DNA of 64,000 nucleotides from Caenorhabditis elegans (lineage: Eukaryota > Nematoda > Chromadorea > Rhabditida > Rhabditidae), in assembly GCF_000002985.6 (NCBI RefSeq), contig NC_003280.10, positions 12,520,501 to 12,584,500 on the forward strand, written 5' to 3'. Positions 1,991-60,554 of the stretch are shown here, piece by piece (within the stretch, counting starts at the first letter, position 1; each line of letters begins with the position of its first letter). Under the pieces are notes generated by a model. The model was not told the DNA's origin, did not search any database, and saw only the letters and a list, made by a program, of their open reading frames with translations. A program made the translations under genes and the position numbers.

Positions 1991-3922
1991 CTCGATGCCT
2001 GGTTCTACAATAGAAGAATTAACGCAGGAATCGCGACAGGAACCCCAGGTCTATCACATTCCACAGAAGTTCTCAAGATTCTCGAAAATGCGTTCAAAAC
2101 TCACCAATATGTAACTCGAGAGCTCACAAAGGAACTGACGGAAAAGGCAGGGCTCAATGAGAAGCAAATTTGGTTTTGGTACAGAAAACGACGAGCAAAA
2201 GCTGAAGCTGCTCATAAAACAGGCGCCGAGTTGCCATTCCAGATGAAGTTACTTGAAATAGCATATGCAGAGGATCCAGGGTTCACAAAGGAAACACTTA
2301 ATAGATTGAAAGAGGAAGGAGGGTTAGAAAGTAAGGATGTAAGTTTAGTTCCATGAAATCCCCGTATATTTTCAAATTTTACAGATCTCGGCCTACTTCT
2401 CCGCACAAAACGAACGAGCAAAGTTTTCGAAACATAAGGATGCGGAGAAAAATGAGCAGGAGTACTTAGCGCAGAAAAAGGTCTATACATGACTGTTTTA
2501 AGTAAAAAGTTAAGAATTTTCAGATAAAAGATAGGGAAAAGTTTGAGAGACATTCTGAAAGCGCTGTTAAACTTTTCAAGGAGACATTCTCGAAATTTCA
2601 ATTTCCCAACGATAGCCTGATAGCTGAACTCATAGAAAAAACGCAAATAGAAGGAGTAAAGGTTTTTTATAATTTAGCGGTAACGTTAAAAAACGTTTTT
2701 TTCAGATTCGCAGATGGTTCACACGAGCTAGAGAAACAGCCATGAAGGCCTATAAAAATAATGGTACCCCGCTGCCGCTTGGAATGAAGGAACGACAGAA
2801 GGAGATGGAAACAATTGGAAATGCGACAAAGAGGATAAGGACTTCTGCAGGAGCTGATGCCGTAAGTCTTTGCTCAATCGTTATACCTATGAACATGACG
2901 GTTTAAGGATCTTTCAACAACATCTTCTCGAAGCAAGAAAGACAAGAAAAGTAAACAAACTGAGCAGCGGGAGCCAAATGAAGAGCCACGATCTCCGAGT
3001 ATTGAGGTTTTTTGAGCTCTGAGGTGGAGTTTCAAATAAATTAAGACTTTTGTTTTCAGAACAATCAGCCACACTGTTCAACTTCCGATCCATCAGCCGA
3101 GAGCAATTTAAACAGCCATTGTAATAAGGGAGCTCGCGATGTGAGTTTTCTGAGGCTTCCATGGGAGTAGGCGTAGTTTCCGGGACCTGGTGCTCACCTG
3201 AAACCTGTCTGAAACCAAGTAGTGGGTGAAGGAGACTACAATCCAGGGGTGCGCGGCAATTGGAAATTTCCGGCAATTTTGGCAATTGACGGTTTTCAAA
3301 ATTTCCGCCAGTCAGCAATTTCGACAAACGCCAAAAATTCCGATATTGCCGAAAAATCGGTTGCCGCGCACCCCTGCTACAAGCGTCCCACAACCTAGAT
3401 ATGGGCTTAATGGATTAAACTTTTGACATTTTCCAGGCTAAACTCAGAAAACGACACAGAGCGTTGCCAGAGTCTTCAATTCTCAGTGAACCAGCTGTAA
3501 GGGTAATGGCTAGTGTGGAGGAAGTAAAAGTAAGTTAGCAGGTTCATAAGACGCAAAAGTGCAAATATGTATTTCAGCAAGAACCTATCGATGGTTCTCT
3601 CCAAGATCCTGGAAACCGAGGAGACAGGGATTGGAGGTCTTGGACGGTAAGTTTTTAAGGCAAAAGTTCCATCCCCGAAACCTAGAAATTTCAGCACTCC
3701 CAAGTCATGGAATGGATGGACCAAATAATTCCCCGCTCGGCGCAGACTTCCTTTCGAGAAGAGCAGATTGAAGGCTCGTCGATGGCCGATTTTCTCAATC
3801 AGACTATCGGAGGGCTTTGCAGAATTCGAGCTCGGAATCCGCGTCTCACAACGGAACATTTCAAGGCGCTGGGGGAGCAGATGAAGTTGCTGGAGCCGAA
3901 CTTTAGAAATGTGGCATTGTGA
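1991..3922 (+). CDS. Multi-homeodomain protein, 3' part (5' exons outside the window)
   Basis: Exons read in one frame: 1991..2338, 2385..2480, 2524..2661, 2706..2861, 2908..3006, 3060..3140, 3437..3529, 3578..3646 and 3695..3922. The first begins with WFYNRR, the end of a preceding homeodomain. A full homeodomain follows, whose recognition helix is QIWFWYRKRRAK. Two more divergent units end in ISAYFSAQNERAKF and IRRWFTRARETAMK. A basic, Lys/Ser-rich tail (SRSKKDKKSK) and an acidic C-terminus complete it. It is probably a nuclear DNA-binding protein. Nematodes have a few genes with many degenerate homeodomains, and ceh-100 is a candidate from memory that I have not verified. The upstream exon must lie left of the window or be hidden before the MITE. 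Confidence 0.85.
3244..3376. mobile_element. hAT-like GGCAA MITE with 8-bp TSD
   Basis: It starts CAGGGGTGCGCGGCAATT and ends TTGCCGCGCACCCCTG, which is inverted. It lies in an intron of the homeobox gene. Flanks CTACAATC and CTACAAGC form an 8-bp target duplication with one mismatch. The interior is TTGCC/GGCAA-rich. It belongs to the same family as the elements at 24444, 56443 and 59033. Confidence 0.75.
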
Positions 3923-4268
3923 TCATTATTTATTCTTTACAATTTACAAATTAGAATGAAACTTTAACGAAATTGAAATATCGGGCTCTTTTCGATTTTT
4001 TTCAAAATTCATACTTATAGCTTCATGAAAAATTCTCGTAGCTGGGCTTCTGAGATTTATGATTTTTGATGGTTCTGAAATTATTATTTTGTTTTGGTAA
4101 AATTGCTCCGTGAGCTCAATTTTTGTGTTTATTTCAGGCGATTCAAGCTTAGAAACCGGCAAAGCCTTTGTCGTAGAATTCTCACTTTTTTTAAATTTTG
4201 ACGCTGCTCTTTTCTATAAAATATGCAAAATTCAAATTTTTACAAAAACCTAAACTCCAAATTTGATT

Positions 4269-4442
4269 TTATTTACCAAAAATCAAAACTATCACCACAA
4301 ATCCAATAAAAACACAGAAAATCACAGTAACGAGGAGAAGAGCGATTATCGTACGAGCATCTATTTCCGATGGTGGTTCAGCATCTTTTGCAGATTCCGG
4401 CAGGCTCACCATTATTGGGCTTGACATGATCGGGCTTGACAT
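4269..4442 (-). CDS. 57-aa single-pass membrane protein, unknown function
   Basis: A short intronless frame on the minus strand. It starts with two near-repeats, MSSPIMSSPIM, then has an acidic stretch (KDAEPPSEIDAR). A long hydrophobic span of about 25 residues runs to the C-terminus (TIIALLLVTVIFCVFIGFVV...), ending IFGK. The layout, a short polar N-terminus followed by one C-terminal helix, fits a tail-anchored or type III micropeptide. It lies alone between the homeobox gene and the first receptor. I recognise no family. The frame may be chance in AT-rich DNA, but its composition is more balanced than that of neighbouring spurious frames. Confidence 0.45.
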   Translation of the reverse strand: MSSPIMSSPIMVSLPESAKDAEPPSEIDARTIIALLLVTVIFCVFIGFVVIVLIFGK

Positions 4443-4690
4443 GAATAGAAAATTGCATGAAAATTCAAGGTTCCTGATGAGTTTTTATATCATTTTGATT
4501 TTTTCGAATTTCTATAGAATCAGGAGAAGCGTCTTGTGACTTTAATTGAACAATTGAAAATGTTTTTTTGGAGGGGGTGATTCAGAATTTTTTCAATTTG
4601 TTGTTTCCTAAAACGTTTCAAATATCAGGAAGTCAAGCTTGATGTTTTAACTATAACAATTGGGAATTTTAAGAAAAAAAGAGGCGAGAA

Positions 4691-5059
4691 GTGGGCGGAA
4701 AACGATTTTTTCTGGCAAACCGACAAATCGGCAAATTGCCGGAATTGAAATGTCCTGCAAATCGGCAAACCGGCAAAATACCAATTTGCCGAATTTGCCG
4801 AAAGTTTTTTGCAAATTGAAAACGGGAAAAAATTCAAAAAATCACAGTTTTAAGTTTTTCCGTCTTATAAAAATATCCCTCTAAACGCTTCCGGCAAATT
4901 GATATCCGGAAACGGCAAATCGGCAATTTCCCGAAAATTGCCGAAATTGAAAATGTCCGGCAAATTGGCAAACCGACAAATTGCCGAAAATTAAATTTTT
5001 CGGCACATCGGCAAACCGGCAATGTTCCGATTTGCCGAACGGCAATTGCCGCCTACCCA
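4691..5059. repeat. GGCAA/TTGCC-rich repeat element bounded by GTGGGCGG/CCGCCTACCCA
   Basis: About 370 bp built of variants of 'CGGCAAATCGGCAAATTGCCG'-like words on both strands. It is bounded by GTGGGCGGAA at the left and CCGCCTACCCA, inverted, at the right. The same left end (GTGGGCGGCAA) recurs at 14162. This is a second, related subfamily of the GGCAA elements in this window. Frames through it are repeat artefacts. Confidence 0.6.
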
Positions 5060-5268
5060 TAGCTTGCCCATTTATTTGACAAAAAAAAAGTGAACTGTAG
5101 AACTTTGCAGCGCCCGACATTTCCCGGTTTCCGCAATGTAAAACATTTTGTTCCTACATACATGAGTGAGTAAGCGATTTGGACACCTTTTTTTTTGAGC
5201 GTTGATTGAATTGGTTTTTTTTTGGCAGAATATTAATATAAATTCAGTGACACCTAAGATTACGCATA

Positions 5269-5281
5269 GGGGGGGGGGGGG
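5269..5281 (+). repeat. Homopolymeric G tract (13 G)
   Basis: An uninterrupted run of 13 G just upstream of the first Srx gene (ATG at 5328). Mono-G tracts of this kind can form G-quadruplexes. In C. elegans such tracts are deletion-prone without the DOG-1/FANCJ helicase. Confidence 0.9.
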
Positions 5282-5327
5282 CGCTAATTGCAATTTTTAC
5301 TCACTGGACACTGCAACTACCTTGAAA

Positions 5328-7368
5328 ATGAGTTCTGTTTTGGACGAGTTTTTATATTCGGAATTTTCAACTCCAAGTACCCGAACTGTATCGGCTGTTA
5401 TGCTAATTGTGGTGAAGCTCTAGAGTTAGAAAAAAACGAAATAAATGCTTCCAAATTCCAGGTCAGTATAATTGGCTCTATAATGAACGTGCTAATTTTC
5501 ATCGCAACCTTTTTCCGGGTTACAAAACGAGATGGGTTTCTGAAAATTTGCTGCTTCAATAGTTTTGGCAGCTGTATAGTTTGCATTGGGTATTTGGCTT
5601 TTCCGGTTCCAAGTCTTTTACTGTAAGTTCATCAAAGCTTCATATGATCCTTAATACACAAAATTTTGCAGTGAAGACCCTCCAAATCACTGGCTAAATG
5701 CGGCGATGGGCCAATTTATAGCGTGGTTCGGGTGGAGTATAGGCCCGCTGTCTCAAATTTTGCTAACCGTCAATCGAATCATAGCCGTCTATTTTCCATT
5801 GTTATACATGAAAAAGTATCGGTATAACCCTACAAATGTGAGTTTTTTAGTTGAAGGGAATTAACAGGGTGAACTTGAAATTTTAGGTCGGTATTGGATT
5901 TTCTTTTTTTGTTGCTTTCATCCTTCTGGTTTCATTTTTTCCAGGTAAGAGTTTAAGACTTATTGCTCACCATTTCAAAAATTCTAGTAAACCGGAAACA
6001 GGAGACGGTACTTGTGTATTACATGCCCTCATTTTAATGGTTATTTTTTTAAGTTTTGGAAAATAAAAACGTGAACCACACTTTCGTATTTTTAGGCTTA
6101 GGAAATAACATTTTGTAAGCCTGAAGAGGAAAAATGTATATCACGTTTAATTTAATTGGAGGAATTAATGAAAATATAATTTAATTTAAAAATGAGGGCA
6201 TGTAATACACAAGTACCCAGGAGACCACAAACCATAAAAGCCTAAATTTCTAAATTTCCAGAAGGCTGCCACTACCTTTTCAATCGTGACTATCTCGGTT
6301 GGGTCGGCGAGTTCACTCCGTGCATTGATATTATGCAAAAGACGTTTTTGGTCGTTATGATGACGATTTGCGCCTTAACGACGTGTTGCAGTGTTTTGCT
6401 TTTCATCAAGTTGATCATACATTCCGTGAGCTTTTGGTTCCGCGTTTTGGGGGCTAGTTTTGGCAGCAAAAATCTTTTCGAATCTTTTGGTTCTATGTTT
6501 TTTAGCGAATGTAGTTTGTAGTCTAGAGTTTGTAGTTTGTAGTTTTTACCTTGTAGTTTGTAGTTCTTCCTTTGTAGTTTGTAGCTTATAACTTATAGTT
6601 TCCAGTTCAAAATTCAAGTAGTGTTCAAGTGGTAATGTGATGTTGACACCAGCGAAATTCAATTTTTGATTTTTCCAAAAAAAATTTGCAATATTCGGGA
6701 TTGTGCTAGAAATTTCTAGACACTTGTAAAAAATTCTAGAAAATTTTTGAATTATTTGGAGAGTTCTGGAAACTTTTGAACAATTCTCGAAACTTCTGAA
6801 ATCCTCTGGAAAATTCGAGAAATTTTTTTCTCTAATTTACAATTATTGAGAAATAAAATGCTTTAGTTTGTAACTTTTAGTTTATAGTTTGTAGTTTGGA
6901 GTTTGTAGTTTGTATTTTCTAGTTTGTAGTTCAGAGCCCCCTTCTTCTTTCATTTCCCATTTTCAGCCCAATTTCCGCGTTTCAAATGCTCAACTTGCAA
7001 ATCGCCATAGAAAAAATCGGAAACTAATAATTCAAGCAATTGTTCAAAGCATCCTTATTATAGTTGACTCACTGAACTCTACAATAACCTATAACCTATT
7101 TCCAAATTTATTTTTTCAATTCATAACTCTATCATTTTCAATGGTGTTTTTGAGAACTCTGGAGGGGTAGGTGAAGCTGAAAGCTTTCCAATTTTAAGAC
7201 GTTGTTGTTTTCAGGTTCGTAGTATTTTCCATCAATGAAACGATCAATGAAGAAGTGAAGAAAATGCTCCGAATGAAGAGTTCTGCAAGTAATGTGTTCA
7301 TCGTGCCGAAGAGATCGATGTCCACTGGCCAGCGAAATTATGCTCGGCAATCGCAGTCAATTCCATAG
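5328..7368 (+). CDS. Srx-family chemosensory GPCR, copy A (328 aa)
   Basis: Join 5328..5411, 5462..5622, 5672..5837, 5887..5944, 6262..6425, 6967..7166 and 7215..7368, one open frame of 328 codons plus stop. The protein is a seven-helix receptor predicted for the ciliary or plasma membrane of sensory neurons. Recognisable stretches are TM1 (VSIIGSIMNVLIFIATFF), a TM3 segment WSIGPLSQILLTVNRIIAVYFP (the DRY-position motif is NRI), the conserved EGCHYLFNRDY extracellular loop with a partner Cys in TPC, and TM6/7 near FFQFITLSFSMVFLRTLEG. Srx assignment rests on these motifs; str- or srt-like families are less likely. All splice phases match copies B and C. The fourth and fifth introns are enlarged by a MITE and by TAGTTTG repeats. 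The ligand is unknown. Confidence 0.88.
6007..6217. mobile_element. 211-bp MITE with perfect 29-bp TIRs and perfect 8-bp TSD
   Basis: The inverted ends begin GGTACTTGTGTATTACATGC, and both 29-bp arms match without a mismatch. The 8-bp sequence CAGGAGAC directly flanks both sides (5999-6006 and 6218-6225). It lies in the intron between exons 4 and 5 of Srx copy A and is absent from the same intron of copies B and C. The sharp ends suggest a recent insertion. The 8-bp duplication fits a hAT-type mechanism. Confidence 0.92.
6515..6936 (+). repeat. TAGTTTG-type tandem repeats in a receptor intron
   Basis: Short arrays of a 7-bp TAGTTTG unit with variants (TAGTTTA, TAACTTA) at about 6515-6600 and 6862-6936. 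Both lie in the intron between exons 5 and 6 of Srx copy A. Similar arrays occupy the same intron in copy B (8751-8796) and, weakly, copy C (12045-12070). The seed array therefore predates the gene duplications. Confidence 0.75.
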
Positions 7369-7746
7369 AATTTGTCAAAAAAAAAAAACACTTTTTTGTT
7401 TTGTTTTGTTTTGTTTTCCAGTACCGAATAATATTTTGATTCATTAATAAATTCTCACAGTTGATGTAGGTTCGCAGAATTCAATTAAAATTGTGGATGG
7501 TGATGTCAAAATTTCGGATTTATAAAATCACTAGGAACAAAAAAATTTTGGCGGCTACAATTTTGCAAAAAACCTCATTCCGCTTGAGTTACTTTAAAGA
7601 ACACTTCCTTCTTCATAATTTGCGATAAAAGCGTGATATAGAGCCATTTCACGCATGCTCATCACGCATTTTGTACCTTTTTTTTAAAGTTCTTAGAAAT
7701 GTTATAAACGTTTACTTCTGGGCTGTAGTAGTTCTTCAATTCCAGA

Positions 7747-9209
7747 ATGTCATCTTCAAACAGTTCCTCCTTTTTGGACGATTTTCTACATTCTCAATAT
7801 TCTACCCCCAACACCCGCACTGTTTCGGCAATAATGCTCATTTTAGTGAGACGCTTCAGAATTTTAAGTCAGAATTAAAAAAAAAATCAATTTCTAGGTT
7901 AGCACAATTGGATCCGCCATAAATGCACTTATTTTCATCACCACACTTTCTCGACTCACGAAACACGATGGATTTCTGAAAATTTGCTGTTTCAATAGCT
8001 TCGGGAGCAGTGTGGTTTGCATTGGGTACTTGGTTTTCCCGGTTCCAACATTGTTATTGTAAGTTGGAAATTGCCACATCTGACACCACGTGGTGTCAGA
8101 GTGTCTCATTTCGTCTTGATCTACGTAGATCTACAAAAAATGCGGGAGAACAGACGACTGATTTCTGATAGTCAACTTATTTTGCATGATTAAGAACGTG
8201 CTGATGTCACATTTTTTGGGCGAAAAATTCCTGCTCAAAATTCCAGAGAAAATCCGCCGAACCAGTGGCTCAACGCAATAATGGGACAACTCATCGGCTG
8301 GTTTGGATGGAGCATTGGGCCGTTATCACAGATTTTATTGGCCATTAACCGGATAACTGCTGTCTACTTTCCATTTTTGCACATGACAAAGTATCGTATA
8401 AATCCTACAGATGTGAGTTTACCTCTAATGAATAAAACACAAATTTCAAAAAAAAATTCAGTTTGGAATCGGCTTTTCGCTACTGATCGCGTTATTCTCA
8501 TTTGCTGTTCTGCTTCCAGGTAATCCAAAACTCCCTAAATTGTCAAAATAATCTGAAAACTTTTTAAAAAATTTTTCAGAAGGTTGTCACTACCTATTTA
8601 ATCGTGACTATCTTGGCTGGATTGGTGAAGTCACACCGTGCACTGAAGTAGCTCAGAATATATTTTTTGGGGTCATGCTTACTATTACAGTCGTGACAAC
8701 TTTTTGCAGTGTTTTGTTATTTATGAAGTTGGTTTTGAACTCGGTAAGAGTGTAGTTTGTAGTTTGTAGTTTGTAGTTTGTAGTTTGTAGTCTGATGTTT
8801 ACAGAAGATTCCTTTATCACAATTTCTCTATATTTTCCAGCCCGATCCAACAGTTTCGAGTGCTCAACTGGAATATCGTCATAGAAAAAACCGGAAATTA
8901 ATAATTCAAGCAATTGTTCAAAGCATCCTTATTATAGTCGACTCACTTAACTCTACAATAACCTATAACATATTTCCAAATTTATTTTTTCAATTCATAA
9001 CTCTCTCATTTTCAATGGTATTTTTAAGAACTCTGGAGGGGTAGGTGAAGCTGAAAATCTCAAATTTTAAAATTTTGTTTTCCAGGTTCGTAATATTTTC
9101 TATCAATGATACTGTTAATGAAGAAGTGAGGAAAATTATTAGAGTCAAGATTTTTGGTCTGAAGCCAAGAACAATGATAGTTCCAACCATATCGATTTCT
9201 TTAATTTGA
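7747..9209 (+). CDS. Srx-family chemosensory GPCR, copy B (323 aa)
   Basis: Join 7747..7845, 7898..8058, 8247..8412, 8462..8519, 8580..8743, 8841..9040 and 9086..9209. The middle five exons have exactly the lengths of copy A (161, 166, 58, 164, 200 bp). The protein keeps all landmark segments: DGFLKICCFNSFGSS, GWSIGPLSQILLAINRITAVYFP, EGCHYLFNRDYLGWIGE with TPC, and FLRTLEGFVIFSIND. The start follows a TTCCAG acceptor, consistent with trans-splicing. The C-terminal tail diverges from copies A and C. Its second intron contains part of a CACGTG-type MITE. It appears functional. Confidence 0.88.
8079..8245. mobile_element. CACGTG-type MITE, partial copy
   Basis: It opens with the perfect 18-bp palindrome TGACACCACGTGGTGTCA, continues into GTCTCATTTCGTCTTGATC and the TACGTA centre, then into the ATGCGGGAGAA and CGTGCTGATGTCAC blocks shared with the copies at 101, 19911 and 62008. 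The right terminus is missing. It sits in intron 2 of Srx copy B. Its GATCTACGTAGATC segment equals the inferred pre-insertion site of the Tc1 at 250. Confidence 0.75.
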
Positions 9210-12477: not shown

Positions 12478-15259
12478 TTTTTTTTTTGAATTTTTTGGAT
12501 TTTTTTTTTCGAATTTCCTTGTTATTGTTTCTCCTGACGGAAATTGACCTGGGTGGCCAATTTCCGTTGGGATGTTTTTCTTTTGATTCTCTGATTATCT
12601 TTTTTTTCAAACACAATATTTCCCAAAATCTTTTCAACTTGCTCAGCCAGTTTTTGGAAAACCTATAATTTAGATTTTAAATTATCTTTACACCATGTTC
12701 TAGGTTCTCAAATGGTCACGTTTTTATATATCATATGATACTCGAAAATAAGAAAATCAAGCACTCGAAAAAAAAACGTGTGCACGCCCGGTAACTCTCG
12801 TAAGATGTCCGCTGCAAAACGAAAACCCGAAAAATGTCTGCCGCAAGACCCAGCCGGGTGATGGTTGTAGAAACTTCCCTACCCAAAAAGTCCCGTGAGA
12901 TGTCCGCTGCAAAATGAAAACCCTTGCTTTGTTCGAAAGATTCCCGTGAATAGCCTGTCACAGGCTATGGACCCGAAAAATGTCTGTCGCAAGACCCGGC
13001 GGGACCATACCCTACCCAAAATGTCCCGTGAGATGCCCGCTGCAAAACGAAGACCCTTGGTTTACTTTTAAAGATTCCCGAAAAATGTCTGCTGCACACG
13101 CTTCATGCTTATTACTGAGTGTTTCCCTTTTACATGTTTTCACGTATGAATCTGCGATCTTCTAAATATTTTGTTCATCTTTTGATAAGGCTGCTGCACA
13201 TCCCTCTCTCTTGCTCTCTTGCCATGACAACGGAAATCTGTCTCTCTCGAGCTTTTCCTCCCCCACGTCTCGTTTTCTTCTATTTTCTAGCTCATCATCC
13301 GAATCTTTTCCGCATATTTACCACTTTTTTTGGTTGGTTGGTGTGTGTGTTGTAGCTAATTTGTGTATATACTTTTCATATAGCTTTGGAATTTTTTGCA
13401 TTTGCTCCCCCTCTAAGATGGAGTGCTAAAAGGGAGTCGGCCTTCCTGAAGCTTGAAAGTGTAGGCCTAGTGCCTTACCCCAATGCACCATATCCTTGAT
13501 CTTTTAAAAATGCATGATCACAGAACACTTCCCCACTAAAGTTTACATTTCCGGATTTCAAATCGAATTCCACGAGTGATAACACTTTCCTTCATTAAAC
13601 ACATTTTTTGCAACAAGTCATGTAAGGATGTGCTCTAACTGATGAGCTACCGGCTCAGAAGCTTTTCAAAGAGATCTCACACCCCCTCCGGATTATCGGG
13701 ATTTTTCCACCAGGCAAAATGGCTGCTACTGCTGCCGCTTGTTTTCATTTTCGTCTTAAACACCACATCGCTTATCGAAATTCTTCCCTAGTTTTTTCTC
13801 ATCATTATATCATAAATCTTCCCAGATAGAGTCTGGGGGTTTTCTTTTGTGATTTAAACAGATTAGACTAGCTCGAAAATTAAAATGTTAATCTCAAGGT
13901 GTTTTCTGAGGCTTGCCGGCGACATTTAGGTGTCCGCAATTAAGATCATGTAAAGTTTGTATGTACCTTGCTATAAAATATAAGACTGGAAAACGGTTGA
14001 CGCTCGTAGGTTCTGTAAAATGTTCAAAGCCTATTAGAAGACGGCTGCAAAAAATTTCCAAAACTTGCAAGCGGTAGGAGGTCGCCTAGGCCTGCTAAGA
14101 GAGTTGAAAGGAGTCGGCCTACTCCAAAAATAGGCTCGCCCTTGCCCCCTGACCGGGAACAGTGGTGGGCGGCAAACTATTTTTTCCGGCAAATCGGCAA
14201 ATCGGTAAATTGCCAAAAATGAAAAGTTCCTGCAAATCGGTAATTTGGCGGAATTGAAAATTTCCGGCAACGCGGCAAACCAGCATTTTGCCGAAGTTTT
14301 CGGCAAGTTGGCGTTTCTCACTTATTTTTTTGGAAATTTCTGAATTTAAATTTCAAATGGCAAAATTAAACGCATCTTATGAATGTTCCTACATATGTTT
14401 TGAAAAGTAAGCAAATTCTATGAAAATATCTAAGGAAAACGGGAAAAAAATTCAAAAAGAGCTGAATATCCGGCTAACGACAAATCGACAATTTGCCGAA
14501 AATGAAAATTTCCGGCATATCGGCAAACCCGCAAAACCTATTCTACTATACATATTTTAGCTCTGTCTGAAATATGACTGTTTCAAATAAAGGCTTGCGT
14601 GGGCAAAATACGTAAAACCCGTTAAAAATCCGCTGCTCATTTGGGCACTGTAACAATTTTTTTCACAGCGCCATGACTCATGTGGCCACAAATTGAAGTC
14701 CTTGATCGTCTGTCCTTTGAAAGGGCTTGCATTCCTTCAAATTTTAGCTATTGTTGTTTTCGCACCACCAAAAAGACCAGACAATGATAATGAGCCAAAC
14801 TAAACATTTCGCAGCACTTCATCATGATTTGATCATTCCCAATTGGCATTTGAACATTAATCGCTTGAACCTTTAGCTAATCCGCCCGTGTCTTCATTTA
14901 ACCCTCGTTCTCCTACTAGTTGACCACTGAAAGATTATTGGTGGAATATTTCAAAATTTCTGATATGTTACATTTGTTAATCTCTTCTTGAAAACTTGGA
15001 AGAAAAAGTGTGCGAAAAGTTCGAAATTTGTGCACTAATTAGACAGGGGATTAGTTTTCTCTGAGATTTGTGAAAAAAAACGATTCGCGTGATACTTTAA
15101 CCCCAAGACCCGCATAATGACTCACAAATTTAATGACTGAAAACAAGAAATTATTTCCGCGTTAAGCTAAGAGGGTGTGCATTTCCGGCGGAAGTTTTTC
15201 GGCGATTCTTTTTTTCTATTTGATTTCTTGGCTCCTAATTTACTTCATTTTCAGCTCAA
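12478..15259. other. Repeat-rich intergenic region, no supported gene
   Basis: It contains the inverted GCAGCGGACAT-type array (12785-13105), a TTGG/GTGTGT microsatellite near 13338, a tRNA-like 5' half near 13628-13655, and GGCAA-type repeat blocks (14162-14310 and 14470-14545, the first beginning GTGGGCGGCAA). The kinase promoter should lie at the right end. Frames in the GGCAA blocks are artefacts of repeat composition. Confidence 0.6.
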
Positions 15260-21915
<6,656 letters not shown>

Positions 21916-22205: not shown

Positions 22206-22253
22206 AGATCACTTTTATCAAATCGAATAATATTGATAAGTTTTATTACAAAA

Positions 22254-24443: not shown

Positions 24444-24534
24444 CAGGGGTGCACGGCAATTGCCGAAAATCCTTAAAACCGGCAATAGTTGAAATTGCCA
24501 ATTGCAGGAAATTCCCGATTGCCGCGCACACCTG
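24444..24534. mobile_element. hAT-like GGCAA MITE, short copy
   Basis: A 91-bp element starting CAGGGGTGCACGGCAATTGC and ending GATTGCCGCGCACACCTG, inverted. It has the same termini as the elements at 3244 and 59033 and only a minimal GGCAA interior. The flanks match poorly as an 8-bp duplication (about 5 of 8). Confidence 0.65.
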
Positions 24535-30700: not shown

Positions 30701-32359
30701 ATAGATTTGTGGTTTTGCTAAGAAAAAGAGGAGCATTGAAATATGGTCTATAAAGTTTTTAGTCGACAAAGGGCAATGAAAATTTGTTTATTTTTTGGCG
30801 AAAAAAAAGGAGCATGGAGCATCAGGGGAAAATAATGACAAAAATAATGACAAAATTTAATGACAAAAAAAAGAAGCTAATATTTGAAAACTATGCGAAA
30901 ACTAACAGAAACAGTGAGAACTACGACAGTTCAGTTTGACCTTTTATAGCTGTTCCAATGAAATGATAAGGGCAACAGAAAAAAGTATGGGTGCGATTGA
31001 GAAGTAAACAAAATGGATGGTTTTGAATAAGATAAGGAGATAAAAAATAACAGATCAAATGATTGGCTAAGTCTTGGCTAAGTCTAATCAGGGATGTCCG
31101 GCAAATCTCAAAATTTGCCGAGCTCGGCAAACACGGCAAATTCGGCAAATTTGCCGTACTGAACAAACTCGAAAAAAATGCTATAATCAAAGTCAGAATT
31201 TTCAATAAGTTGAGTGAGGTCTGTCGGTATAAAATTTGAAATAACTCAATTTTAAGTTATTTTACTGACTTTTTGGAACAAAATGAATATGGCAAATTCG
31301 GCAAACTTGCACACCTCTGCTTCAGATTTTTTAATCAAGTTGAACAATTTCTTTACTTGCAACTCATATTATCAATTGCATATTTGTACATTTCTCGTTC
31401 ATGATTTCAGCTGTGATTGTGTGTCTCTCATTTTTCGACCTCCTGTACAACTGTCACATTGGATAGGAAAAACACTAAAGATGTTCATTGATCCGTATCG
31501 TTGTCTGCCGAAGAGAAAAACAAATTAACTTACTTTTTAATATGATGACTATAAAATGTATTAGATTCTTTTTTAGGTAGCAAGTTTAACTAATGAGTTG
31601 TATTTTAGGTATATTTTTTCATATTTATTCAGTTCAGTGCCAATTGTCGTTGAATATTTTTTGCAATAAACGATTTCATTTTATAACATATTTCATTCGA
31701 CTCATCGTGGTGAGACCACCCGGATAGGTTATTAACGACTTTCTTTACCAGGTGCAGGCCTCATTAGGCATGTCCTTGATTTAGTGTAAATTTGCAAACA
31801 GGAAGATTTTATGAGTTCAGTTTCCTTTTTTCTCCCATTTTATAAAAATTAGGATTTTGTAGAGAACAAGAACTAGATGTTTAATAAGTTGTTGGTATTA
31901 TGGTATAATTAACACAATTGTAATAACTTAAAAAAACGGTATATGTATGATTGTATTTCTTGTAAGAGATCATATAATAGGGAGTACAGTATTCTGGATA
32001 AATGCTTATCTATTTTTGGCAATCTCAATACTGTAGCGGCCCTGGACTAATCTGACAGTCCTAGGTCTACCGTCTACCTCTTTTTTAAGGCTCTTTGTGA
32101 TCTACAAGACATACATTAATATTCAAAATGTTCCTTTTTCATTGTTATACCAAATGTTGTTGTGGCAATCTTTATGAAATCCCAAACAATACATTTTTGT
32201 TCAGAAACTTTCTTCAAACTATTTTGAAAAAATAATTTACCAATTATTAATTGAAAAATGGAATTTTATTTTCTCTCATTTTTAAATTTAGTTTTCTATT
32301 ATTAAAATGCTTAAATTATCCATACTTAATAGTTCTTGACTGTTCCCGCCCAAACTTTC
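27750..32359. other. Gene-poor, AT-rich region
   Basis: No convincing gene was seen. Notable contents are words related to CCCAAGTTTTGCC near 28385-28440, a GC-richer patch with CCGCGCCGCCGCC near 29243, a CCGTATT...AATACGG element at 29903-30129, GGCAA repeat fragments at 31095-31160, and an orphan frame at 31412-31527. That frame follows a TTTCAG acceptor and ends FIDPYRCLPKRKTN, resembling a receptor tail, with no partner exon found. Confidence 0.5.
29903..30129. mobile_element. CCGTATTTCCTCTATTAG-type inverted-repeat element
   Basis: The right end reads TGCAATACTAATAGAGG then AAATACGG followed by TA. The left end is its diverged inverse (CCGTATTATTTTTTTATTTT). Sharper copies lie at 44521-44660 and 46063-46370, with loose fragments near 36870-36930 and 37990-38060. 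Confidence 0.55.
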
Positions 32360-49778: not shown

Positions 49779-49779
49779 T

Positions 49780-53137: not shown

Positions 53138-53536
53138 AGCTTTGAAAGAGCAGGATATTTTTTTGAATATTTCTGGCAAGCCGTTCAAAACAAGATGACA
53201 GAATTTTCGCAAAAAGTCCGACTAGTCGCATGGATACCAAAAGCTCTGAAGCTTGCTTTTTGCGCAGATTTTATTCGGAATAAAGACTTAAGACTCTGGC
53301 TTTTTTATATTAACGATGTAGTTCTCGTTTCACCATTTTATTTAACTTCATAATTCAATTGTATAAAATTGAAATAAAGTTCAATAAAATTCAATTCAAT
53401 TTAGTTTTCCCGTAGTTTTCATACTCCGCTCAATGAGTGACGTGCCTTTATTTATCAATTAGATCAGATCATTAGAATAATTTTATTAATGGCTTATTGA
53501 TTAAACGGCAAATAACAATTATTTCCATAAAATTAA

Positions 53537-54268
53537 TTATCCGAGCGATGCGTAGTAATTCAATAATTCATGTCTTTTCTGAAGCTCCAACAGTTGGATG
53601 TTACAATCAATCTCCATCTCTTCACATTTTTCAGTAGAGTCTCGCAATTGTCCGAGCAATTCTTCGCTCTTGGCGTTCATATTCTTCACAAGCGTCTTCA
53701 TTTCATCGCGAAGTAGATCAGCTTCTCTTCTTGCAGCACTCGTTTCTTCTTGAATTCGGCACTTTTCAGCACAATTTTCAAAATAATTATATTTGTTTTC
53801 AGCCATCAGTTTTTCCAGTTCTTCTTCCTTTTGTCTCAAAACTTCCTTGACAGTTCGAATTTCGAATTGAAGATAATCCGCGACTTGATCCCGAGATGGT
53901 TGGTCGAGCTGGATGTTCATTTGATAGAGCTTCGTGACTTCTCTTGTAAAACGACATTTTTCCTTCTCATCTGCCAAATCGGTTTTTAACTGCTCTTGAA
54001 CTGCATTCGCGATTGCCAGTTTGCTCCCTTCCAGTCCAATTTCTTCTTTTAAAACTGTAACTTGCTTCTTCAAACTCTGAATTTCACGCTTAGAAATGTC
54101 TTCCGAAAGATTGCGCTGGGCTGGCAAGTTACCGAGCGCTTCGACTTCCAGCTTCACTTGGAACGTCTTTAGCAAAGCATCCTTCTCTTCTTTTTGCTTG
54201 CGAAGCTTCTGAGCCTCGACTTGAGAAGCATACAATAGTACTTTGAGATACTCGAGCTCTTCGGACAT
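53537..54268 (-). CDS. Coiled-coil protein (243 aa), unknown function
   Basis: A single intronless frame. I start at MSEELEYLKVLLYASQVEAQ (54268) because the longer upstream reading is low-complexity and starts in non-coding DNA. Nearly the whole length is heptad-rich and charged: EAQKLRKQKEEKDALLKTF, SKREIQSLKKQVTVLKEEIG, IRTVKEVLRQKEEELEKLMA and LLRDEMKTLVKNMNAKSEEL, ending RHELLNYYASLG. It probably forms a long alpha-helical dimer, as in cytoskeletal or scaffold proteins. Absence of introns in an intron-rich neighbourhood suggests a retrocopy or a single-exon gene. No specific family recognised. Confidence 0.8.
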   Translation of the reverse strand: MSEELEYLKVLLYASQVEAQKLRKQKEEKDALLKTFQVKLEVEALGNLPAQRNLSEDISKREIQSLKKQVTVLKEEIGLEGSKLAIANAVQEQLKTDLADEKEKCRFTREVTKLYQMNIQLDQPSRDQVADYLQFEIRTVKEVLRQKEEELEKLMAENKYNYFENCAEKCRIQEETSAARREADLLRDEMKTLVKNMNAKSEELLGQLRDSTEKCEEMEIDCNIQLLELQKRHELLNYYASLG

Positions 54269-54891
54269 TTTTTTTGTTGTGAAGGAGACTGGAAAATTGC
54301 TTTTGTTAAGAAAAATAGCAAAAAAAAAGCAACTTTGTAAACGGCAGTTTAAAAAAATTAGCAATTGCACCATGTTGTTTCATTTTTTTTAAAATTAAAT
54401 TTTGATGTCAAAGTATAGAAAATTATTTGATTTATATGGAAAATAACATTGATTTTAGTTGAAATATTTGAAAAAAAAGTTTTTAAAAAATGAGCCCGGA
54501 AAATTGAAAATTTATCGAATTATCAAACTTGGCTTTCTTGACAGTCGCCAACTTTCAGGCCAGTTTTGAGCACTTTTTTGAACGTGCCAAATTAAATGAA
54601 TGTTTTTTTTTCAGATTTTACCAAGTAATTTTCTATATTTTGACATAAATTTTTAATTTAAAATGTTGGATCAACATGGCGCATTAGTTAATTTTGTAAC
54701 ATTACCAAAAATGCCAAAAATGAAAATGGCAAGATTGGTCGAGAAAATATTAAAACATTGAGAAAAATTGCGAATCCTGTACGACAACTGTTACTCAAAT
54801 GAAACTGTCTATTTAGGCCGGAATAACGTGGGTAATTGGGCGGAGAAGACTGGCTGGAAGGTCGATAGGGAAGGGTCTGGAGATGAGAGAG

Positions 54892-55020
54892 ACAACTTGG
54901 TACATAGGCCAACTTGGTACATAGACCAACTTGGTACATAGGCCAACTTGGTACATAGACCAACTTGATACATAGGCCTACTTGGTACATGGACCAACTT
55001 GGTTTATAGGCCAACTTCAT
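54892..55020 (+). repeat. 17-bp minisatellite (about 8 units)
   Basis: Tandem units of RCCAACTTGGTACATAG, where R alternates between g and a so that pairs form a 34-bp higher-order unit. The right-hand units are more diverged. Frames across it (for example repeated KLAYVPSW) are artefacts. Confidence 0.92.
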
Positions 55021-55208
55021 GTCTTTTCCGTACACCGGAATATTGATTGTACATATTATAATTTTTATGGTCATAATAATTTTATGACCCTTCTAAACAC
55101 ATTGATGGTTGAATAGCGTAGATTTGTAAGATATCTTATCCCCTATTGCCTGCCTTCCCGACAAACAAACATATGGTGAAAATAATAGGCTGTACTTTAA
55201 TATTTTAT

Positions 55209-57222
55209 TTAGAGCATTTGAACAAATTTCGAAAAAGTGGCACTAAACCCATAGCGAATATTTGAATCCTCAGAATTTCCCGATCGGAATGTCACCAGCA
55301 TCGTGTTCCCAGTCGACACTAGATTGATCGGAGTTTCGTTGAATCCGCTGAACGATCCAAGCATCGGACTGCTAGTCGTCTCCCCATCGTACACCGTCAC
55401 ATAATCCAAATTCAGATTCGTAGAGAAATCGGTGAACTTCAGAAGGATGTTATAGGCTCCTGTTGTAGATAGTAGATAGCTACAGTACATGTTATTGTCG
55501 TAGTAGCCAGGGTATGCCGGTGAGGAGATGGTCCCAGGTGCCATGATCATAGAGCTATTGCACATTGATGGAATAACAGGAGTTGGCGGGGTCTCCGGTT
55601 CCACCCAAGGACAGGATGTTCCTGCAGGCCGCTTGCACAGGAAGCTATTACTTGCTTTACAATCAACTGGGTACCAGGAACCGGTGGGGACCATACTACC
55701 AGTTCCGGTAGACATGGCAAGACAAACCCCACCTCGTCGAGCTGTATGGTCTATATTGTGATAACTCCATGACGATCCGTCAAACCAGGTGTAAGAGCTG
55801 TTATAGCTCCAAGTGGCACCTATCAAGAGTGCAGAATAAGTGTAGAAGTTTGCATTGATGTATCTGTTCTCCATGGGTGAAAGGATTGAAGCAATGATTC
55901 CACAGTTCTCTTTGCAGATCTTCTGTGCGGATACAAATGGAAGTGGCGCGAAATCGAAGTAGCAATAGCCGTTGTAGTTCTTTTGGCATTGGTCTGAAAG
56001 TTTATAAATTTTTATGATGATTTGGCGCGAAATTAGAAATTCAAAATTTTAAGAATTCCCTTTACCTTCATTCGTTACCGGAAGCTCACATACAAACGCC
56101 CTTGACTCTTTTTCACAATCTCCACTGGACCACTGTCCCCTATCGAAAGCCACTTGGCTACTGTATACACATCTTCCTTTCTCCACCAATGGGAACCCTG
56201 AAAGATCCTTATTTTGTATAAAATATTTTTAATTTTTAATTCTTACCGCTCTTAAAGTTTTGAAACTGGTCGGCTGACCCGCTATCATCATCCCAGAAGC
56301 ATTCCTTAGCGGAGCTCTTTGTGCAAAAGAGCCCTATCCAAATAGAGTTGGAAGCCCCACCAACGAAGATTGTGATTGCGCGATTGTCCTGTAAAATTTA
56401 AAATATCTTAGGCGGTCAACTATGGTAGGCAGGTCTGCCCATCAGGGCTGTGCGGCAAAAAAAACCGAGAATTGCCAAAGTCGCAGAACCCAAAAATTTT
56501 CGGCAACCGGAAATTGCCGAAATTGCCGAACCGTAAAAATTTCGGCAAACGGGAATTGCCAAAGTTGCCGAACCGTAAAAATTTTGGCAACCTGGAACTG
56601 CCAAAGTTGCCGAACCGTAAAAATTTCGGCAACCGGAATTTGCCGAAATTGCCGAATCCAAAAAATTTCGGCAACCTGGAATTGCCAAAGTTGCCGAACC
56701 GTAAAAATTTCGGCAAACGGGAATTGCCAAAGTTGCCGAACCCAAAAATTTTCGGCAACCGGAATTTGCCGAAATTGCCGAATCCAAAAAATTTCGGCAA
56801 ACGGGAATTGCCAAAGTTGCCGAACCCAAAAATTTTCGGCAACCGGCAACTGCCAAAGTTGCCGCACTGTAAAAATTTCGGCAACCGAAAATTGTCGAAA
56901 TTGCCGAACCCAAAAAATTTCGGCAATCGACAACTTTTCGGCAACCGGCAACTTGACTGCCTGTTGCCGCACAGCCCTGGTAGGCAGGTATGCTTGCCTG
57001 CCTATGCAAAAAAAAACTCACTATAGAACTTTTAATATTGGCCAAAGTAGCACCACCATTTTTCAGACACGTAAGCTCGGCAGTCTTGTGTGTTTCTGGA
57101 GTCTTAAAAAGTCGAAGGCACTTATTATTATTCACCAGTGTATAGCCATTAGAGCATACTGGTGATAGTTGTGCATGCGAAAATAATAAAATGAGAAAAA
57201 TTGATTGAAATAGTAGCTGCAT
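55209..57222 (-). CDS. Secreted C-type lectin with two CTLDs and a CUB domain (419 aa), copy 2
   Basis: Exons 57022..57222, 56247..56388, 56066..56197 and 55209..55993. Signal peptide MQLLFQSIFLILLFSHAQLS; CTLD1 spans exons 1-3 (CSNGYTLVNNNKCLRLF ... WIGLFC ... CFWDDDSGS ... GDCEKESRAFVCELP). CTLD2 starts CQKNYNGYCYFDF and ends FLCKRPAG. The CUB domain runs from CNSSMIMAPGTISSPAYPG through YVTVYDGE to GFSATFSKF. The canonical EPN/QPD and WND sugar-binding motifs are not evident, so ligand binding may be non-classical. C. elegans genes of this architecture (clec family) are often intestinal and pathogen-responsive. The first intron carries a 537-bp satellite-bearing element. It is a paralogue of the gene at 57918 with the same exon layout. 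Confidence 0.9.
56443..56979. mobile_element. hAT-like GGCAA element expanded into a 42-bp satellite
   Basis: Termini CAGGGCTGTGCGGCAAAA and TTGCCGCACAGCCCTG are inverted. The interior is about 11 tandem 42-bp units of the type AAATTTCGGCAACCGGAATT-GCCAAAGTTGCCGAACCG. Because 42 is divisible by three, several frames stay open on both strands and mimic 170-260-residue proteins. It lies in intron 1 of lectin copy 2. GTAGGCAGGT words occur on both sides outside the termini. Confidence 0.88.
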
Positions 57223-57579
57223 TATTTGCCCTTATCACTTGACTAATTGTGCTTTATAGAGAACTTTTTTTTTGGTTAACTTATTGACCAAAATTGCAGA
57301 AACACTCTGTCATTGAAAGATTCTTCAGTGAACTATACAGGAGTTTGAATGCTTATCAAAGTTAAAATATAGGTAAGCTGATTAAAAATTTCCTTTGTGG
57401 AAAATGGTGGAGGTGGCCGCGGAAAACTAATTGGTGGCCGAGTTTTTTGATTTTGCACTTTTCGAATTCTTCCTTCTAACCGGTTAATTAAACATGTACA
57501 GTTCTACATAGCGTTATCACTATTACTTGTGAGAGTACGGGAAATGAAATAATTTATGATGTATGATTTATTCATGAAA

Positions 57580-57760
57580 CATTCTTATCAATGGCGAGGC
57601 ACATATGAAGAGACAGTGACCAGAAGAATCAAAATTACTATTAGATCGGAATGTGACAAGCATTGAATTTCCAGTCGAGACCTTGAAGAATGGCCACTCG
57701 TAGTACCCACTGTAATTTCCAATTATAGGATCGCTAGTTTTGTCTCTCCATGTAGTTTGA
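57580..57760 (-). pseudogene. CUB-domain relic between the two lectin genes
   Basis: On the minus strand, TSDPIIGNYSGYYEWPFF and STGNSMLVTFRSNSNFDSSG match the end of the lectin CUB domains (NDPVIGVYAGSFYPF; STGNKMLVTFK). No other part of a lectin is recognisable around it. The array probably once contained a third lectin gene. Confidence 0.75.
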
Positions 57761-57917
57761 AATACACACATACAACTTAGAAACCATCTTCTATTTATGT
57801 TATTTGTCTTTTGAACTTTTTTGCTCCGTGTTAACTTCAACAAGTTTTTCATTAATATAAATACATTAGTTTTTATATCCAAATTAACAATATGCTATCT
57901 ATATATATATCAAAAAA

Positions 57918-60554
57918 TTAATCGCGTTCTCCACTTTCTGTTGTCGAATAGGAAGTAATTCGTCCGCTGAACCCTTGTCTTGTATTTGATTTGTCTGTCT
58001 TAAAAGTGACAAGCATCTTGTTCCCGGTGGATATCACTGTGAACGGGTAGAAAGATCCAGCATAGACTCCGATCACAGGATCATTCGTGGAATCTCCATC
58101 GTAAACCGTCACAACATCGTTGACCTTTTCAGTGTCAAATGTTGAAAATCTGAGGAGCACATTGTAAGATCCTAGTGTGGATATTTGATAGCTGCAGAAG
58201 TCAGAGTTATAGTAGTTATATGGGAAGTGGGGTGATGTGATTTCACTTGGAGCCATAACGCTAGAATTGCAGAACGATTGGACTGCTGGCATTGGTGTCA
58301 CGGGGACGATGGTTGGGTTTGGAGGACATTGGATTCCGGCAGGTCTCTTGCAGACGACACTATACTCGTTTTTGCATTCTCCACTGTACCACATTCCAAG
58401 GGCGATAGGTCTCGAGTCACCATTTGACATTATGACGCAAACTGAATCTCTGACGTTTATTGGATCGAAATTTTCGTACTCCCACAGTGAACCATCCACC
58501 CAATTGTATACGTCGTCAGCTGGCCACATGCCTCCGAGTAGGAGATCTTCTTTAGTAGCACGTCCGCCAAATGTCATAATGTACCGGTTTTCATTAGCAG
58601 AGTGAATTGAGGCCAAGTTTCCACACTCTTGCTCGCAAATCTTCTGGCCCTTGGTATAAGTTGAGGCGGTATTGTGGAAAGTGTAGCAGAAGCCATTGTA
58701 ATTGTATGGGCATGGGTCTGAAAAAAAAAACTGAATTTCTTCCACAGATCTGTTGTGATGGGCTCACCTGCATGAGAAGCCGGTAGTTCACAAATGAAAG
58801 ATCGGCGATCGTTGCAGTCACTGCTCAGCCACATGCCTGCCAAGGCGCCTTGCACAGAGTAGTAAACGCAGTTTCCGAGGGCGATGTGGGGGAATCCTGG
58901 AAACTTGTAATTCTACAAAATAGCTCCCGTAATTCCTGGCAGCAAGGCATTCTACAAGTACGCATTTCCACCCCATCTGCCATTACAGGAGGCGCCTTTA
59001 TGACACCTAGGCCAAATATAATGCCTAGTTGCCAGGCGTGCGCGACAATTTCCGTTTGGCAATTGAATTTTCGCCGAAATTTCCAATTGCCGGAAATTTC
59101 CAAAACCGGCACTTGCCGAAATTGTCGATTGCCAAAAGTTTCCAAAACCGGCAATTGCCGAAATTGCCGATTGCCGAAAAAATTAAAAACCGGCAATTGC
59201 CGGAATTGCCGATTGCCGAAATTGCCGGAAATTTAAAAAACCGACAATTGCCGGAATTCCCGATTGCCGGAAATTTCCAAAACCAGCAATTTCCGGAATT
59301 GTCGATTGCCGGAAATTTTCAAAACCGGCAATTGGCGAAATTCAATATTGCCGGAAATTTCCAAAAACGGCAATTGCCCAAATTGCAGATTGCCAAAATT
59401 GCCGATTGCCGGAAATTTAAAAAACCGGCAAGTGCCGAAAATTTCCAAAACCAGAAATTGCCGAAATTGCCGATTGCCGGAAATTTTAAAAACAGACAAT
59501 TGCCGGAATTGCATATTGCCGAAAATTCCCAAAACCGGCAATTGCCGAAATTGCCGATTGCCGGAAGTTTTCAAAACTGGCAATTGACGAAATTGCCGAT
59601 TGCCAAAATTGCCGATTGCCGGAAATTTTAAAAACCGGCAAGTGCCGAAAATTTCCAAAACCAGAAATTGCCGAAATTGCCGATTGCCGGAAATTTTAAA
59701 AACCGGCAATTGCCGATTGCCGCGCACCTCTGCTAGATACTGTGATCCTATCCACGATGTGAATATGTGCTACAGCTCAAAAAATCAACCCGTGGAGCCC
59801 CCAATGCATTAAAATTTCCTATCGCTCATTTGTCTAGTGATGCTTTGAAACATATAAACCACCATGTTAACTGATAACAGAGATCAAATTAACATCTCCC
59901 CCCCGCCACTCACCAGCCGCAAAATTGTCATAGACCTCAGCGGATCCAGTAGCATCATCCCATAAGCACTTTGAAACGTCACTATCGAAACAGTAAAGTC
60001 CCATCCAGAATAGGTTGGCGTTGTTTCCGGTGAAATCCGCGATGGCTCGGTTGTCCTGGAAGAAATTATGAGGTTCGGGGTATCGGGATCAGAGAGGCCC
60101 ATTTAATGGCTGGATTTCTTTTTTCTTGGATTTTCAGCGTTTTATAATAGAGATTTACGGCGTCCGGAATCTTTTTGTGTATTTTTTCTTTTTTCTAAAT
60201 TCATTAATTTTTTGGAATTTCTTGTCTTCTCTTTCTCTCCCCGGTCAGCCTAAGCCTAAGCCTAAGAGTAAGCCTAAAACTAAGTCTAAGCCTAAGATGA
60301 AGCCTAAGCCAAAGCCTAAGCCTAAGCCTAATTTTTTTAAAACTAACAATAGAATTCTTCACAGTCACCAGTGTCGCTCCATATCCCTTGCAGGTTTTCT
60401 CAGCCGCAGTATGCGTCGAAACATCCACAAATATCCTCAGACATTTCCCATTGATCAATGTGAATCCACTAGTGCAGACTGGTGGATAAGATGCTTCACT
60501 GATTGTGAGCAGTAATAGAAGGGAAACGAGAAGTAGGACGGAATAAAATTGCAT
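57918..60554 (-). CDS. Secreted C-type lectin with two CTLDs and a CUB domain (425 aa), copy 1
   Basis: Exons 60348..60554, 59914..60055, 58768..58896 and 57918..58717. Start chosen at MQFYSVLLLVSLLLLLTISE; upstream in-frame codons lack ATG. CTLD1 covers residues about 28-157 (CTSGFTLINGKCLRIF; NLFWMGLYC; CLWDDATGSAEVYDNF; SDCNDRRSFICELP). CTLD2 covers about 160-282 (DPCPYNYNGFCYTF ... YSVVCKRPAG), and CUB about 309-415 (FCNSSVMAPSEITSPHFPYN ... DVVTVYDGD ... GFSGRI). No EPN/QPD-WND calcium-site pair is seen. Exon 2 is 142 bp in both lectins. Intron 1 carries telomere-like repeats and intron 2 a 700-bp satellite element. Probably secreted into the gut lumen or pseudocoelom. The clec number is not assigned. 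Confidence 0.9.
59033..59732. mobile_element. hAT-like GGCAA element expanded into a 42-bp satellite, second copy
   Basis: Termini CAGGCGTGCGCGACAATT and GATTGCCGCGCACCTCTG. The interior has about 16 diverged 42-bp units of the type CCGGCAATTGCCGAAATTGC-CGATTGCCGGAAATTTCCAAAA. Flanks CTAGTTGC and CTAGATAC agree at 6 of 8 positions, compatible with an aged 8-bp duplication. It lies in intron 2 of lectin copy 1. All long frames here are repeat artefacts. Confidence 0.88.
60246..60335 (-). repeat. Interstitial telomere-like repeat (TTAGGC)n
   Basis: About 14 units of GCCTAA with variants (GAGTAA, AACTAA, GATGAA) on the plus strand, equal to TTAGGC, the Caenorhabditis telomere unit, on the minus strand. 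It lies in intron 1 of lectin copy 1. Confidence 0.9.

Follow-up and report, generated by a model that had tools for sequence, protein, structure and literature searches.

The window analysed here is a stretch of 64,000 bases from the Caenorhabditis elegans genome (contig C2, which we take to be chromosome II of the reference, positions 12,520,501-12,584,500; the genome has 100,286,401 bases in 7 contigs). It contains four short elements with terminal inverted repeats (TIRs), two of which carry tandem arrays of a 42-bp unit (Table 1). An initial annotation of this DNA had described them as one hAT-like family whose interior has expanded into a satellite. The observation as such was confirmed. 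All four elements were exactly where they had been placed, inverted ends were present, and the arrays, given as about 11 and 16 units, comprised 11.0 and 15.1 copies when called with Tandem Repeats Finder (TRF). Compared with the 16-base consensus of their families, the ends of elements 1 and 3 were identical on both sides (16/16 + 16/16); those of element 2 agreed at 15/16 + 15/16 and those of element 4 at 14/16 + 15/16. Two plausible 8-bp duplications had been reported, a fair description of element 1 (flanks ctacaatc / ctacaagc, 7/8) and element 4 (ctagttgc / ctagatac, 6/8). The inverted ends stood, the single family did not: the motif GTGCGCGGCAA was exact in only 4 of the 8 ends, and element 3 bears the sister motif CTGTGCGGCAA in its place. 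Therefore, two end families must be distinguished. In addition to these four, three further relatives were found. The right end at 5046-5061, TTGCCGCCTACCCATA, is 3 mismatches away from the nearest end type. Past the 35-bp units of the relative at 14160 the sequence resembles, by eye, one of the core types described below (A4). Similarly, the DNA downstream of the left end at 31089 resembles an A3-type element by eye; it has no paired right end.

Table 1. Elements, arrays and further relatives in the window (positions are those of the whole stretch).
Feature	Position	Strand	Description
Element 1	3244..3376	.	family A, 133 bp, no core found; ends CAGGGGTGCGCGGCAA / TTGCCGCGCACCCCTG
Further relative	4913..5061	.	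43-bp array 4913-5022, 2.5 copies, then degenerate right end 5046-5061
Further relative	14160..14270	.	left end CAGTGGTGGGCGGCAA 14160-14175, then 35-bp units 14195-14270
Element 2	24444..24534	.	family A, 91 bp, no core found
Further relative	31089..31104	+	left end CAGGGATGTCCGGCAA
Element 3	56443..56979	+	family B, 537 bp, no core found; both ends exact, CAGGGCTGTGCGGCAA / TTGCCGCACAGCCCTG
Array of element 3	56463..56926	+	42-bp unit, 11.0 copies (TRF); 126-bp (3-unit) higher-order period
Element 4	59033..59732	+	family A, subfamily A2, 700 bp, no core found
Array of element 4	59073..59716	+	42-bp unit, 15.1 copies (TRF)

Genome-wide, the exact 16-base end of family A, CAGGGGTGCGCGGCAA, was present 91 times and that of family B, CAGGGCTGTGCGGCAA, 93 times. 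The reversed patterns of both ends had no genome match. This indicated that the ends are abundant beyond chance. A single-family reading was rejected because two of the 16 bases, 6 and 9, distinguish the sister end types and because the units have diverged. Sequence was read in 69 merged segments (276,822 bases, window included). As most segments were picked for having an exact end, the counts of target-site duplications, pairings and shuffles describe copies with good ends. In these 277 kb the true ends had 116 and 110 matches at ≤3 mismatches, counts that overlap as the families are only 2 bases apart; letter-shuffled ends (20 shuffles each) had means of 0.45 and 0.6. Exact left and right ends were paired within 1 kb in 8 cases for family A (98-445 bp) and in 16 cases for family B (145-727 bp); exact neighbours within 1 kb in any other orientation were absent among the A and B ends. 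As to the size range with common ends, proposed as a check in the initial annotation, a wide range was observed. Together with the abundance of exact ends, the small size of the copies (69-727 bp) and their TIRs are typical of miniature inverted-repeat transposable elements (MITEs); their non-coding status was judged from size and repeat content.

End pairing at ≤3 mismatches gave 38 pairs, to which one extra pair and six selected by exact-end coordinates were added. Two segmental duplicates were dropped; the resulting 43 pairs still contain pairs with worn ends and one or more that are probably false. The doubtful pair is C2:233017-235330 (2314 bp), with a left end at 3 mismatches and flanks matching at 2/8; it is still counted among the 43 pairs here and among the 42 elements examined below. 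Twice, family B copies of equal length lie in opposite orientation with mirrored flanks, C1:11452541 / C1:11468537 (16 kb apart) and C2:1630477 / C2:1635179 (4.7 kb apart); these are probably inverted segmental duplications. Another sister end, CAGGGGTGAGCGGCAA, has 51 exact genome copies (18 forward, 33 reverse), among which no pairs within 1 kb were found. The two ends of such elements may differ from each other.

The TIRs of hAT elements are short and begin with CAGGG or similar, as do the 24 pairs of exact ends within 1 kb, and the target consensus of Ac-type hAT elements is nTnnnnAn. The 8-bp flanks were identical at ≥7 of 8 positions in 26 of the 43 pairs (16 at 8/8, 10 at 7/8); the remaining 17 had 2-6 of 8. 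When left flanks were combined with right flanks of different copies, this degree of matching occurred in 7 of 1806 cross-pairings. The consensus of the duplications was nTnnnnAn with T at position 2 in 22/26 and A at position 7 in 24/26. The six pairs that had been chosen by exact-end coordinates alone had five duplications at 8/8 and one at 7/8. Concerning length, 22 of the 39 pairs read in sequence were preselected for identity over 8 bp; in these the flanks agreed at 0.94 when 8 bp was assumed and at 0.20-0.32 for 2-7 and 9-10 bp. Because duplications of the nTnnnnAn type were present in 26/43 pairs compared with 7/1806 cross-pairings, we read the elements as non-autonomous hAT MITEs which, by their sequence, form two sister families; the hAT-like nature proposed initially is supported by the same duplications. 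A Helitron-borne satellite was also considered. Helitrons have neither TIRs nor target duplications, and the TIRs and 8-bp duplications rule this out. That the ends are a chance resemblance of TTGCCG-rich low-complexity DNA has a negligible probability: short motifs are indeed common to unit and end, yet the reversed and shuffled controls were near zero and target duplications exist, and the controls already refute this explanation.

What is between the ends? Five core probes, each derived from one element (the palindromic A1, A2, A3, A4 and B), do not match each other. Their own five sources are among the 24 of 42 elements that they matched; one further match covered only 50 bp. The 18 elements without a match include the 675-bp copy C1:7941770, which has a different middle, and the doubtful 2314-bp pair. 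Core-bearing family B copies are laid out as end, 0-2 units, spacer, core of about 90-150 bp, 1-3 units, end; the position of the core is constant in aligned copies. The direction of the units was scanned around cores of family B and A2. Around 12 family B cores, which include two duplicate pairs, 18 units at left and 25 at right were all forward and none was reverse; 9/12 had units on both sides. In family B, therefore, the 42-bp repeat belongs to the regular subterminal structure of the element and is more than an expansion in a few aberrant copies. For A2 elements, the scan around 12 cores (two arms of one inverted repeat among them) suggests the same, more weakly than in family B. The units are rich in TTGCCG/CGGCAA, and those of A and B are related, the commonest form of each including CCGGCAATTGCCGAARTTGCCGA. 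The reported resemblance between the unit and the inner part of the terminus was found in both families (GCGGCAATTGCCG versus CCGGCAATTGCCG in A, GCGGCAACCGG versus TCGGCAACCGG in B), and the location of the 42-bp repeat inside the hAT family was borne out. A unit pattern drawn from a window array was over-specific (9 genome matches) and was discarded. Copies of the A1 subfamily, e.g. C2:4001193, are long palindromes. A foldback structure for all copies was rejected, as array-bearing copies are not palindromic and family B units are direct.

Several family B copies have no core. Those of 145, 153, 187 and 214 bp are flanked by duplications at 8/8, 7/8, 8/8 and 8/8, respectively. The first 122 bp of the 187-bp copy equal the left part of the core-bearing copy C2:1806724 at 113 positions, and its last 82 bp equal the right part of the core-bearing copy C1:2441597 at 76 positions. 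The matched stretches overlap and jointly cover all 187 bp in register. A GATTCC unit occurs in 3 of 6 core-bearing copies, always to the right of the core, and is located mid-array in the 187-bp copy. Tiling by left and right blocks was partial in the 145-bp copy (133 bp) and in the 153-bp copy (103 bp). In element 4, the left 43 bp equal those of the core-bearing A2 copy C1:472661 at 37/43. The self-match of element 3 was 0.74 at 42 bp, 0.76 at 84 bp and 0.77 at 126 bp; the higher value at 126 bp than at 42 bp fits growth by three-unit blocks.

According to the initial annotation the interior had expanded out of almost nothing. This order of events was set aside for core loss, because the 187-bp copy is tiled by left and right blocks and because core-bearing copies already hold subterminal units beside their cores (on both sides in 9/12 of family B and in 4/12 of A2). 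The sequence of copies with arrays and of those lacking a core is better explained if they are derivatives which have lost the core. The arrays in the window are consistent with core loss and tandem growth, and a fusion of blocks may also have given rise to the 214-bp and 537-bp copies. Hence a hAT family carrying a satellite was right in kind; the order of events differs, core loss being more likely. The opposite order was considered as well, i.e. an ancestral pure array between two ends, in which at least five unrelated cores were captured later. The five cores that do not cross-match and the different middle of C1:7941770 (675 bp) behind like ends demonstrate that interiors change, and 18/42 elements match no core probe (the 675-bp copy and the probable false pair among them). 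This would suit an array that came first. Nevertheless, the core-less 187-bp copy contains the right-specific GATTCC unit in register, as core loss predicts, and the core is in the same place in aligned family B copies. We regard the array-first order as improbable.

Next to the internal structure, the association of arrays with ends was determined. TRF arrays were taken from segments around the first 30 of 86 unit 17-mer matches (C1, C2) and from the rest of the window. Of 16 TTGCC arrays of ≥86 bp, 9 had an end within 120 bp at ≤2 mismatches, 10 at ≤3 and 13 at ≤4. These ends were in the right orientation and mostly ≤60 bp off, and reversed and wrong-strand end patterns were found at none of the 16. 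Three of the 16 arrays sit in segments picked also for an end. Without the three window arrays, two of which were those of the initial annotation, 10/13 had an end at ≤4 mismatches. Similarly, 14 of 20 unit-bearing segments had an end (≤3 mismatches) within 1.2 kb of the unit, and the reversed patterns gave 1 match. Among the family B unit loci (78 matches), those with ≥75% identity had an exact end within 300 bp in 20/30; over all 40 loci it was 21/40, the weaker loci being mostly A2-type arrays. Family B cores (best 40 of 70) had an exact end within 500 bp in 21/40. Family B arrays are mostly carried by elements. Long A2 arrays (the best 40 of 687 by score, not a random sample; window copy included) had an exact end within 100 bp in 8/40 and no more had one within 1 kb, compared with 0.085 (100 bp) and 0.325 (1 kb) expected from random placement. 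For A2 cores (the best 40 of 99 by score, not a random sample) an exact end was present within 300 bp in 17/40. This indicated that exact ends are visible in under half of the true copies. Of the A2 arrays, some are carried by elements and others are free; in the long arrays of family A the ends, or at any rate their exact motif, have often been lost while the array persists. The initial annotation had named units without termini as the finding that would speak against it. In this respect family B units agreed with it (20/30 with ends), and the long family A arrays (8/40 among the best 40 of 687) did not.

Could the satellites be independent, with MITEs inserted into or beside them by chance? 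Some 42-bp arrays without ends, and the lack of an exact end at most of the long A2 arrays (best 40 of 687), would be explained. The ends that were found, however, are ≤120 bp away and correctly oriented, with a wrong-strand control of 0; the target duplications lie outside the array-bearing copies; and core-bearing copies carry the same units. Chance insertion is therefore very unlikely.

We think it probable that these are hAT MITEs with tandem 42-bp blocks at their ends, in which loss of the core, joining of the blocks and growth of the array have taken place. The ends carry short tandem 42-bp blocks, which in family B run in the same direction on either side of the core. Since left and right blocks are direct repeats of each other, loss of the core is possible: template switching or recombination between direct blocks may delete the core and fuse the blocks into a single array. 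Gap repair after transposon excision is a route to deletions, and the repair of the gap left by an excised element could be such an occasion here. The fused array may then lengthen by duplication of several units at a time. It would be carried to new sites while both ends work, and after decay of the ends it would be stranded as an ordinary satellite. The TTGCCG units are putative subterminal sites to which a hAT transposase would bind with its BED domain. Possibly this is why units are kept near the ends.

Several observations weigh against this scheme. In the window, the flanks of element 2 are ambiguous (5/8) and element 3 has no target duplication (flanks 3/8). Tiling by left and right blocks fails for the 214-bp copy (68/214) and for element 3 (80/537). 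Around the 12 A2 cores the units were 11 forward and 0 reverse at left, 14 forward and 5 reverse at right, and in only four of these 12 were same-direction units present on both sides. No end adjoins the 42-bp arrays C1:961871-962576 (16.8 copies) and C1:13998281-13999866 (37.7 copies), and 6/20 unit-bearing segments had no end at ≤3 mismatches within 1.2 kb. An array at C2:2334478-2334659 also has no end, though it is close to an end-bearing array. Among the best 40 of 687 long A2 arrays 32 had no exact end within 1 kb. The difference between these arrays (8/40) and the best 40 of 99 A2 cores (17/40) had a Fisher P of 0.053; where the list of ends was complete, it was 6/29 for arrays versus 11/22 for cores (P 0.038). 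Finally, no complete autonomous partner was found.

The shortfall of ends at A2 arrays suggests, as another reading, a mixed origin, in which family B arrays would be MITE-borne and the long A2 arrays would now be a MITE-seeded, independent satellite that spreads otherwise, by local duplication or circles. Beyond the rarity of exact ends at the long arrays (8/40 of the best 40 of 687, versus 17/40 of the best 40 of 99 cores), this would agree with their distribution: contig C6, presumably X, holds 1/40 of these arrays and 8/40 of these cores (Fisher P 0.029). The array C1:961871-962576, which is homogeneous (92% matches) and has no ends, also fits. On the other hand, 13/16 of the arrays that were read in sequence have an end at ≤4 mismatches, thus the shortfall is in part a decay of the exact motif. 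Long A2 arrays were no more distal on chromosomes than A2 cores (P 0.30). We hold the mixed origin to be rather unlikely. It can be reconciled with the final stage of core loss and array growth as proposed above, so that our estimates for the two are not mutually exclusive.

A link to a transposase was examined with the hAT dimerisation domain, for which the genome has 13 loci. For three of these, a listed feature (end, core or array) was found at a distance of ≤4 kb, whereas random placement gave a mean of 0.30 such loci (P 0.003; the 4-kb limit was fixed after part of the distances were known). The other 10 were >100 kb from features of the A and B families. An open reading frame (ORF) of 130 codons at C1:11305823-11306212 contains the domain (PF05699, E 1.5e-11). 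At a distance of 0.8 kb is the right end TTGCCGCTCACCCCTG, which is 15/16 identical to the family A end and is preceded by a different repeat of a GATCGCC type. On C4 the 16-mer TTGCCGCTCACCCCTG recurs, at about 0.45 kb from a fragment that is 96% like the last 28 residues of this ORF. The C1 element is probably internally deleted, and its proximity to TTGCCGCTCACCCCTG is a lead to a relative of family A, not a proof. The stretch with the C1 ORF is flanked by an inverted repeat of 2.36 kb (C1:11302146-11311193; segments L080, L081, L100), 99.4% identical over the part read, and each arm holds an A2-type MITE core. That this repeat is a single autonomous element was rejected: each arm has a separate A2 core, the flanks are mirrored and a direct duplication is absent. 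Beside the hAT remnant are two ORFs (L100 1420-2098, minus strand). One has QYADDT and is reverse transcriptase-like by eye; the other had no Pfam match at E 0.001. A region of 3.2 kb on C4 (C4:106238-109407) combines an exact GTGCGCGGCAA end with a hAT dimerisation domain and with an A2 array of about 740 bp; judged by these coordinates, it is a possible candidate for the autonomous partner. At C6:15258652-15261110 a hAT dimerisation match is 2.3 kb from an A2 core.

How does this compare with known systems? Among the published cases considered, the closest is Tetris of Drosophila virilis, a foldback transposon with the TIR-220 satellite (PMC4079207). It, too, is a non-autonomous DNA element. 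Tandem repeats stand near its ends in numbers that vary, their unit is similar to part of the terminus, and arrays are present inside the element as well as in repeat-only contigs. Its authors propose extra transposase sites and unequal crossing-over. The Tetris repeats of about 220 bp, however, sit in long inverted repeats with a middle domain, whereas here the family B blocks are direct, the hAT ends short, the duplications 8 bp, and the core-less copies seem to have arisen by core loss. Thus, hAT ends, direct blocks and core loss set the present elements apart. In C. nigoni, there are satellite families that are flanked by conserved sequence at 5' and 3' and, according to the accessible text, are proposed to move together with it (PMC5748669); the terms "inverted repeat" and "MITE" are absent from the main text. 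In Crassostrea gigas short satellite-like arrays are dispersed by a non-autonomous mobile element, which in the excerpt at hand is a Helentron, not a cut-and-paste hAT (PMC7492417). In Hermes and other hATs, short motifs recur in the subterminal regions, where BED domains bind them; these Hermes motifs are short and interspersed, and the portion of the paper available has no mention of tandem 42-bp blocks or arrays (PMC10368747). Among the titles and abstract openings listed from the open-licence PMC literature, none connected this repeat with a TIR transposon.

For C. elegans itself, a satellite survey of 2015 lists Cele_Fam_1_35, with a 35-bp unit, as the largest family and Cele_Fam_9_43 as related; together they are MINISAT1 (PMC4595182, as excerpted). 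By eye, the 35- and 43-bp units here are like these two in their verbal description. Our 35-bp unit has the internal octamer CGGCAAAT twice and a 13-base palindrome, CGGCAAATTGCCG; the survey reports two palindromic regions. The 43-bp form looks like the 35-bp unit plus the octamer, and the survey has a related 43-bp family. Probably the 35/42/43-bp units are Cele_Fam_1_35 / Cele_Fam_9_43 / MINISAT1, judged from the description and not from a consensus. In the excerpted survey other satellite families are tied to Helitrons or pairing centres, and no TIR transposon is named for Cele_Fam_1_35. The largest family is stated to be practically absent from X, with which the scarcity of long A2 arrays on C6 agrees.

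Other repeats of the window concern different sequences. At 60247-60331 there are 14.2 copies of AGCCTA, which we assume to be like an interstitial telomeric repeat. A 17-bp repeat, CAACTTGGTACATAGGC, at 54893-55017 (7.4 copies) is unlike the units of the hAT elements. TGTAGTT-type repeats at 6510-6608, 6864-6931 and 8751-8800 resemble the ACTACAA motif in the available part of the survey (PMC4595182).

The origin of dispersed satellites is an old question, and its early steps are seldom seen. Here, one genome displays candidate stages: core-bearing copies with up to three units per side, a core-less copy with distinguishable halves, copies with 11 and 15 units, and long arrays without ends. 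If the 35/43-bp units are the largest named satellite family of C. elegans, this family would gain a transposon source. More tentatively, with the odds somewhat against it, the 35/42/43-bp TTGCCG repeats, probably the largest minisatellite class of C. elegans, might altogether be debris and cargo of hAT MITEs. Direct, putatively transposase-binding blocks would eject the core and the array would expand by itself; each jump may give birth to a satellite or lengthen one, and the arrays would outlive their ends and seldom be on X. The data suggest that core loss from small hAT elements is one way to come by dispersed minisatellites.

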